DNA of 64,000 nucleotides from Methanolobus zinderi (GTDB lineage: Archaea > Halobacteriota > Methanosarcinia > Methanosarcinales > Methanosarcinaceae), in the NCBI RefSeq assembly GCF_013388255.1, contig NZ_CP058215.1:1302001-1366000 (forward strand), given 5' to 3'. The notes below the pieces were generated by a model. It saw nothing but the letters and a program-made list of their open reading frames with translations, ran no database searches and was not told the DNA's origin. The position numbers and the translations under genes were made by a program. Shown piece by piece: positions 39,217 through 40,887 of this stretch (positions are counted from its first letter, which is position 1; each line of letters opens with the position of its first letter).

Positions 39217-39715
39217 GACTCAAAAGGAACAGGAGCAGGTGATAAAACTAATGTTATGCTCAATTATGGTTACTCGCTGCTTGAGGCTGAATGTCTGAGA
39301 GCCATTAACACAGTTTGTCTTGATTCTCATGTTGGTTTCTTGCATGAGATGAAGCTCACAGATGAGTTCAATGCTAGATGAATTCCAAAGTTGAGTACAG
39401 GAAAAAGAATACTACTTGTGGAAGTGTTCTTTTGTTGAAGGCTAGGAATTAGCTCAATGCTTAGTAGGCAAGAGGAAATCTGTTGAATTCAGCAAACCTG
39501 CTTACATTGGGAAGAGAGACGATACCGATCTATTGAGGAAGAAGATTCTTATCATCAGTTATACAGAATGGAAGAAAATAGGGTTCACAAAAGGTACTTC
39601 ACACTATAAGAAGAAGAAGAAGAAGAAGAAGAAGAAGAAGAAGAAGAAGAATTCCGAAGCTGATAAGCCTTTTAGTTTGAATGCTCATGTTAGGGAAAGG
39701 CTGGAAAGCCTTTAA
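39217..39715 (+). pseudogene. cas1: Decayed cas1 3' part (copy A) with AAG expansion
   Basis: The frame from 39217 reads NVMLNYGYSLLEAECLRAIN and DSHVGFLHEMK, the catalytic core of Cas1 including the GFLH histidine, then stops at 39379. Further pieces follow in other frames: VGKRKSVEFSKPAYIGKRD, ISYTEWKKIGFTKGTSHY and, after a lysine run, SEADKPFSLNAHVRERLESL to the stop at 39715. The N-terminal half of Cas1 and the middle of the C-terminal domain are missing. No cas2, other cas gene or CRISPR array is in the window. The C-terminal GFTKGT..Y segment resembles the helical tail of Cas1 homologues outside CRISPR loci (Cas1-solo, casposase); which one cannot be decided. Confidence 0.75.
39608..39649 (+). 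repeat. Fourteen tandem AAG triplets
   Basis: A perfect (AAG)14 microsatellite encoding poly-lysine inside copy A of the cas1 relic. The corresponding place in copy B (after TGCATTC at 40786-40792) has only ATGAAGAAAAAT, so the ancestral sequence had about one or two AAG/AAA codons. Confidence 0.9.
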
Positions 39716-39748
39716 ATGAATCATACATTATTACTAATGATAAAAATG

Positions 39749-40294
39749 AAAGATGATATTCATATCAGGGAAGCAAAAGAATCTGATTTTGATGATGTAA
39801 TGCATGTAGAAAAAGAAGCATTTGGTTATGAGAAGGAGGCAATCTTAGTATCGGAACTTCTTGAAGACAAAAGCGCAGCACCAGTTTTATCGTTGTTGGC
39901 TTTTAAGAACGATGAAGCAGTTGGACATATTTTATTTACAAAAGCAACTTTAAATGGAAAAACATCTCCGTTAATTTACCTTCTTGCACCTCTTGCAGTA
40001 AAACCACAACATCAAAAAAAAGGAATAGGTGGAATGTTGATCAATGAAGGTTTGGAGAAATTGAGAAAAATTGGCGCTGAAATGGTATTTGTTCTCGGAC
40101 ATGAAAGTTATTATCCAAAGTACGGATTTAAGCAGGATGCCGGAAGTATGGGTTTTGATGCACCTTATCCGATTCCGAAAGAACACGCAGGTGCATGGAT
40201 GGTATATCCTTTAAACCCAGAATCTAGTGATAAAGTTAAAGGCAAGGTTATTTGTGCTGATGCTTTGAATAAGCCGGAGCATTGGAGAGAATGA
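39749..40294 (+). CDS. GNAT-family N-acetyltransferase (YhbS-like)
   Basis: A 181-residue single-domain acetyltransferase. The acetyl-CoA site is PLAVKPQHQKKGIGGMLI; the segment FVLGHESYYPKYGF is typical of the YhbS/COG3153 branch. Either ATG 39716, which follows the relic's stop directly, or ATG 39749 (MKDDIHIREAKES) may be used; the second fits the family start better. The acceptor is unknown. It is sandwiched between two copies of a cas1 remnant, so it may have been inserted into, or duplicated together with, that gene. Confidence 0.85.
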   Translation, partial: KDDIHIREAKESDFDDVMHVEKEAFGYEKEAILVSELLEDKSAAPVLSLLAFKNDEAVGHILFTKATLNGKTSPLIYLLAPLAVKPQHQKKGIGGMLINEGLEKLRKIGAEMVFVLGHESYYPKYGFKQDAGSMGFDAPYPIPKEHAGAWMVYPLNPESSDKVKGKVICADALNKPEHWRE

Positions 40295-40319
40295 AAGGTT
40301 TATTCTGTGTATTTGTAGT

Positions 40320-40887
40320 GAATGCCGCAATAATAGTTCAGCTTGAATGCTCACGTAGGTTTTTTGCATGAAATGAACACTGGAAAGAATAGTCTGGCCT
40401 ACGACCTGCAAGAACCTTTCAGGTTCTTAGTGGATTTTGCAGTTTTAAGTCTCATAGAACGAGATTGCATGGAAAACAAGGATTTCATTAGAACCGAAAA
40501 TTATTCCTTGCGCCTGAGGCCCACTGGGGCTAAGAAACTAACTGAAGAAATCAATCTATGGTTCAACAAGAGAGTTATCTACAAAGGGAATATGTCAATG
40601 TGGAGTTATGTCATGTTCCTAAAAACTAGGGAATTAGCTCAGTATCTAGTTGGTAAGAGACAGGAGACAAATTTTGTAGAGCCTCAATATGAGACAAAGA
40701 GACAGGATACAAGCGACATTAGACAGAAAATACTCAGTATTTCATATTCTGATTGGAAGAAATTAGGCTTTTCAAAAGGAACATTGCATTCATGAAGAAA
40801 AATGCGAAAGCAGATACGCCTTTTACTCTTAATGCTCATAATAAAGAACGTCTGGATAAGTGGGAAAAACTTGTTGCCCATGGCTGA
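40320..40887 (+). pseudogene. cas1: Decayed cas1 3' part (copy B)
   Basis: The main frame (from about 40343) encodes LNAHVGFLHEMNTGK, then SLAYDLQEPFRFLVDF and LRLRPTGAKKLTEEIN, the C-terminal catalytic domain of Cas1 with the GFLH histidine and the YDLxEPFR acidic residue intact. It ends at 40795 because one base is missing from the TAC codon after TTGCAT; the tail ADTPFTLNAHNKERLDKWEK continues one frame over to 40887. The N-terminal half is absent. It matches copy A but is longer and less damaged, so the two arose by duplication with the acetyltransferase between them. Confidence 0.8.

Follow-up and report, generated by a model that had tools for sequence, protein, structure and literature searches.

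Remnants of family-2 casposases and retained cargo beside a tRNA-Leu gene of Methanolobus zinderi

We describe a locus in Methanolobus zinderi, next to the 3' end of a tRNA-Leu(UAA) gene, where two or more family-2 casposons very probably integrated and then decayed. The window is the whole stretch of 64,000 nucleotides that was analysed (G000:C1:1302001-1366000), part of a 2.70-Mb single-contig genome; coordinates are those of the window unless stated otherwise. The account has several established parts: the casposase lineage of two cas1 remnants, the tRNA-proximal terminal inverted repeat (TIR), the target site, orthologous intact elements, and two sources for the cas1 pieces. The kind of element is known, and the Methanolobus fossil record of casposons is unusually rich: at a single orthologous nucleotide, 23 Methanolobus species between them show casposons that are intact, in tandem, without cas1, or hollowed out.

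Casposons, mobile elements driven by Cas1, have been proposed as the origin of the CRISPR adaptation machinery. To our knowledge, little is known of their fate after integration. Methanolobus offers a test case for how an integrase that targets tRNA ends accumulates target repeats and retained cargo, and orphan cas1 tails, which annotation would label CRISPR genes, are thereby explained.

Two cas1 remnants from different casposase groups

Both remnants lie on the plus strand, on either side of an intact GNAT acetyltransferase gene (39716..40294, plus strand; Pfam PF13527, 3.4e-12). Copy A (39205..39715) covers casposase residues ~192-236 and ~289-397; it has lost 159 bp internally and single nucleotides elsewhere, and has gained an AAG expansion. 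Copy B (40352..40884) covers residues ~223-404 and is frameshifted near 40790. Matches to the PF01867 profile for copy A (6.2e-11, genome 1341235 = window 39235) and copy B (2.1e-17, genome 1342340 = window 40340) confirm the two broken cas1 genes around GNAT that the preliminary description reported. It was also correct that the N-terminal half is absent from both, copy A beginning at ~192 and copy B at ~223. These cas1 pieces can no longer produce an integrase. The AAG repeat expansion (39608-39651) is missing from the sister relic of M. vulcani PL 12/M.

By sequence, the remnants are those of family-2 casposases. Like the intact casposases of the same genome, they match the solved M. mazei casposase 6OPM; copy B does so at 4.2e-64, versus only 7e-7 for the best CRISPR Cas1. 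They have the C-terminal HTH extension of family 2 and group among casposases in a tree built on the C-terminal half of casposases and remnants, in which a misaligned sequence (G023c) is ignored, deeper nodes have low support, and the CRISPR Cas1s of the genus form a long separate branch. Copy A and the M. vulcani PL 12/M relic pair with support 1.0, close to the casposases G001b and G023b, and copy B joins the G004 and G001a casposases. The DNA of copy B is 90-91% identical to the intact cas1 of G004 and M. bombayensis, and its protein is 92% identical to that of G004. A Cas1-solo identity, raised earlier as an alternative, is not supported: the closest relatives are PolB-linked casposases, in a tree made up of casposases, their remnants, and CRISPR Cas1s.

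Since copies A and B fall in different casposase groups, they are relics of two elements, and a duplication is not supported. The preliminary description had instead placed a duplication around a cargo gene: a single casposon would have had its cas1 duplicated around a captured GNAT, with the copies decaying separately. Their shared orientation and retained 3' part would suit such a history, but the different intact casposases with which they group, the closeness of copy B to G004, and a DNA similarity between A and B that is limited to short conserved stretches make it very unlikely. Decay of a CRISPR-associated cas1 whose locus has since been lost would also give PF01867 matches; this origin is almost certainly wrong, given 23-25% identity to the CRISPR-linked Cas1 of the genome, the casposase-type HTH tail, and a casposon TIR at tRNA-Leu. 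The remnants do not group with CRISPR Cas1s and have no CRISPR-cas locus nearby: the only CRISPR-linked cas1 found in the genome is at genome position 2191609, 0.85 Mb away, beside about 107 repeats. The test named in advance as able to overturn the casposon view was whether a CRISPR locus close by has a matching Cas1; it was run and left that view standing. The reported absence of a CRISPR array or other cas gene holds within the window. The CRISPR-Cas locus with its own cas1 occupies G000:C1:2183950-2200000.

The tRNA-Leu(UAA) target site and its terminal repeat

The casposon remnants are part of a larger island bounded by tRNA-Leu (45908), and the preliminary description drew the feature too short. 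Host genes run leftward from about 32.3 kb, with synteny to G003, G004, and G005. The right end of the island, overlooked earlier, is a 30-bp tRNA-proximal casposon TIR (45865..45894, minus strand) next to the integration target gene, tRNA-Leu(UAA) (45903..45988, minus strand; ARAGORN), which in sister species adjoins intact casposons. Under a TIR model learned from intact elements, the site at 45894 scores 28.2 bits; nothing else in the window exceeds 11 bits, and the best score in the reversed window is 11.1. This TIR lies exactly 14 bp past the CGCA at the tRNA 3' end, and the 14-bp target site CGCACCTGGTTTTT (45895..45908, minus strand) comprises the last 4 bp of the tRNA and 10 bp more.

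In other genomes, the orthologous site can be recognised by the MBL gene that lies on the far side of the tRNA (46069-46824 in the window). Among the Methanolobus loci with a readable tRNA, 23/23 have a GGG[A/T][A/T]ATA end at the same nucleotide and keep the position of the target site; 21 of the 23 TIRs score at least 15 bits and 2 are degenerate. Integration at the tRNA-Leu 3' end, one mark of family-2 casposons, is seen in the window at exactly the position found in 22 other Methanolobus genomes. About half of Methanolobus species have intact or nearly intact casposons there, and the target site duplications (TSDs) of verified relatives show 12-14/14 matches. Sister genera retain the tRNA-MBL pair, and since their site is apparently empty in about half, the repeat is no part of the tRNA locus itself. 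Casposase tree, 6OPM match, terminal repeat, tRNA-Leu target, and orthologous occupied sites together back the casposon-like origin first proposed from the cas1 tails.

Of the ends of the element, the right TIR and the target site were recovered. Within the window, TIR scoring found no left TIR, and no second copy of the 14-bp target occurs with up to 3 mismatches allowed. The PolB, HNH, and HTH genes of the family-2 core are likewise gone from the window, except for a 35-residue polB scrap, which has the opposite orientation to that expected. A polB/cas1-type C-terminal tail scrap (35685..35824, plus strand; tblastn E 5e-4; blastn 77% over 101 bp) is a weak candidate for a further casposon end. 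No TIRs lie within 700 bp of cas1 and polB; the actual TIRs are farther out, past the cargo. With two mismatches allowed, the background of the TIR pattern was near that of the reversed control in several genomes, and we therefore used mainly exact, near-exact, and GGG-type sites.

Family-2 casposons of the Methanosarcinaceae include MetMaz of M. mazei, MetBur-C1 to C3 of M. burtonii, and MetPsy-C1 of M. psychrophilus (PMC4046053, PMC6977970, PMC10359463). The elements studied here are like them in their casposase with a C-terminal HTH and related HTH tail on PolB, in a TIR starting GGGATATAGGTAAC and a 14-bp TSD starting CGCA, and in insertion at the tRNA-Leu 3' end with tandem and decaying copies. 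The M. mazei casposon has a 14-bp TSD in which CGCA is the last 4 bp of tRNA-Leu, and the TIR-tRNA geometry of the window is the same (PMC6977970). Unlike these casposons, the window has no intact element, a missing core, and one detectable TIR, and cas1 3' ends of two lineages flank the retained GNAT. In M. burtonii and M. psychrophilus R15, an adjacent second casposon is decaying without identifiable TIRs (PMC4046053); the window locus resembles them in this but has decayed much further and is one of many. Because tandem and decaying casposons, including the Methanolobus psychrophilus remnant (PMC4046053), are already known, the locus is of a known kind. The analogy that PMC4046053 draws with Tn7 islands at glmS applies as well: one safe site is reused and older copies decay, although the integrase is unrelated and target recognition different.

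Cargo, a block shared between species, and a deletion joint

GNAT lies directly downstream of the cas1 3' end in six genomes, which identifies it as casposon cargo and bears out the role first assigned to it; its dN/dS of 0.14-0.22 denotes purifying selection. Upstream of copy A are a TrmB-type regulator (37425..38267, minus strand) and a class I methyltransferase (38414..39184, plus strand). The block of TrmB, methyltransferase, cas1A, and GNAT (37335-40304) is 90.6% identical to that of M. vulcani PL 12/M, whose copy points the other way with respect to the tRNA; rearrangements beyond simple deletion have therefore taken place. The cas1A of both species has the 159-bp deletion and one 1-nt deletion in common, and dS is 0.12-0.30 for three block genes, whereas the host MBL gene is saturated (61% protein identity). 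From the shared lesions and this low divergence, it follows that cas1A was already dead when the block crossed species. The block probably travelled within a larger casposon. Either the methyltransferase by itself or its pairing with TrmB is found at 86-94% identity in >20 genomes of the family, several times beside cas1 stubs. In another genus (G045, L137 8341-10713), two cas1 stubs around GNAT face a casposon TIR, as in the window.

Three further cargo genes separate copy B from the TIR. An 888-aa protein (41118..43784, plus strand) has Walker A-like GEAGIGKT and ALFFIDA motifs and, on motifs alone, is a putative P-loop NTPase; Pfam, PADLOC, NCBIfam, and PDB gave no match for it, and it is possibly a new STAND-like cargo or defence protein. 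A 274-aa ORF (43988..44812, plus strand) has a homologue in the casposon region of a sister species. A 303-aa ORF from the ORF list (44815..45726, minus strand), with a lipoprotein-like start, has no Pfam or PADLOC match. Apart from the GNAT, TrmB, and methyltransferase folds, cargo functions are guesses. Upstream of the 274-aa ORF, a sequence of ~85 bp (43792-43877) is repeated inside casposons of G006 (3 places) and G021 (2 places).

Between GNAT and copy B, the window preserves a joint. On the 3' side of GNAT, it tracks G004 and G023 into a third cas1-tail scrap CAGCTTGAATGCTCA (SLNAH; 40341..40355, plus strand) common to both, and then switches at CACGT into G004-type internal cas1. This switch has the look of a joint left by a deletion between neighbouring elements, at short microhomology, and such a joint accounts for the odd LNAHVGFLHEM start of copy B. 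The start is a chimera of the cas1-tail scrap and internal cas1, which corrects the preliminary description.

Genus-wide loss of casposon interiors

Nine complete Methanolobus genomes hold 13 near-full cas1 genes and 79 cas1 fragments, a few of which are pieces of one broken gene; stubs and TIRs are present in all nine. The C-terminus is reached by 56/79 fragments and the N-terminus by 3/79, and mean fragment depth is 2-4 over the first 150 residues and 46 over the last 50. PolB fragments have a depth of 17 in the last 94 residues and about 2 over most of the rest. When 67 cas1 fragments, with adjacent pieces mostly merged by hand, were examined for a facing TIR within 4 kb, 18/67 had one on the 3' side and 0 on the 5' side, with 0.45 expected at random; for polB, the counts were 10/20 and 3/20, with 0.12 expected. 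Interiors are thus lost, and ends and cargo survive; tandem insertion followed by cargo-sparing deletions would be the simplest reading. Easier detection of C-terminal stubs was rejected as the cause, since residues 51-100 and 201-250 show about the same conservation yet turn up less often among fragments.

Relatives also harbour elements between casposon TIRs that lack cas1. The element at G004:C1:176917-184936 has perfect TIRs, a 14-bp TSD, and polB, HNH, and HTH genes; cas1 is absent and a SIR2-like gene stands in its place. A 6.7-kb element (G022:C2:2960439-2967154) carries HEPN, HEAT, DUF4357, DUF4365, and unnamed genes, has neither cas1 nor polB, and sits within a tandem casposon array adjoining tRNA-Leu. 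A third, G021 720269-722650, contains a FilR1-like regulator together with a polB stub; because its TIRs differ in subtype, it may be the deletion product of two tandem elements. The cas1-less elements suggest mobilisation in trans. They may be new: a literature term search did not find casposons together with miniature inverted elements, which is no proof of novelty. Another candidate mini-casposon, a 1.3-kb TIR pair around a cas1 tail and GNAT in G015 (L074 5643-6917), was rejected, as its flanking 14-mers match at 4/14 only.

These patterns bear on the remaining explanations of the window. One is that cas1 tails are kept because they are useful in themselves, perhaps as small HTH proteins by which casposons are regulated or silenced. 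In its favour, the HTH tail is the part most often retained across the genus; this is nevertheless highly improbable, as frameshifts and stops interrupt the stubs of this genome, and polB ends show the same bias, which suits retention of ends better than selection for the cas1 tail. It is also hard to credit that the remnants are parts of a mini-casposon still mobilisable in trans: the TIR-bounded, cas1-less elements of relatives offer a precedent, but a non-autonomous casposon has both TIRs, and the window has a single detectable one, which is degenerate.

For the decayed tandem casposons that we favour, we propose the following history. In each ancestral element, cas1 would have pointed at the tRNA from the side opposite polB and HNH, and the cargo would have filled the stretch from the cas1 3' end to the terminal repeat. 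Casposons would have integrated in tandem beside tRNA-Leu, and deletions between neighbouring elements, the GNAT/cas1B joint at its short microhomology presumably among them, would have removed the left TIR, polB, HNH, HTH, and 5' cas1 and spared the cargo. The end product would be the order cas1A-GNAT-cas1B-cargo-TIR-tRNA, in which GNAT is maintained by selection; the TrmB-methyltransferase pair, dead cas1A, and GNAT have passed between species as one block. The tandem insertion and the deletions are read from the anatomy of the elements.

More tentatively, and with more doubt than confidence on our part, the Methanolobus tRNA-Leu(UAA) site could be a standing array of casposon cargo: a record of insertions resembling a CRISPR array, whose relic blocks spread in composite casposons. 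Successive casposons, including cas1-less ones acting in trans, would enter beside the tRNA between 14-bp target repeats; their cores would be deleted and their cargo would remain, and relic-bearing blocks would reach other species within composites. Cluster support for a decay gradient away from the tRNA is mixed, and we do not propose one.

Two intact casposons in the same genome, each with PolB, HNH, two HTH genes, and a casposase, have TIRs matching at 30/30 and TSDs at 14/14: one of 8.1 kb (genome 912842-920963) and one of 17 kb (G000:C1:1103622-1120612). Inside its perfect outer TIRs and TSDs, the 17-kb casposon contains relic TIRs and cas1 stubs, and a composite of this kind is a possible vehicle for the TrmB/GNAT block. 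Its two relic TIRs, of other subtypes, lie about 87 bp apart, and it also carries metabolic-looking cargo and a histidine-kinase-like gene.
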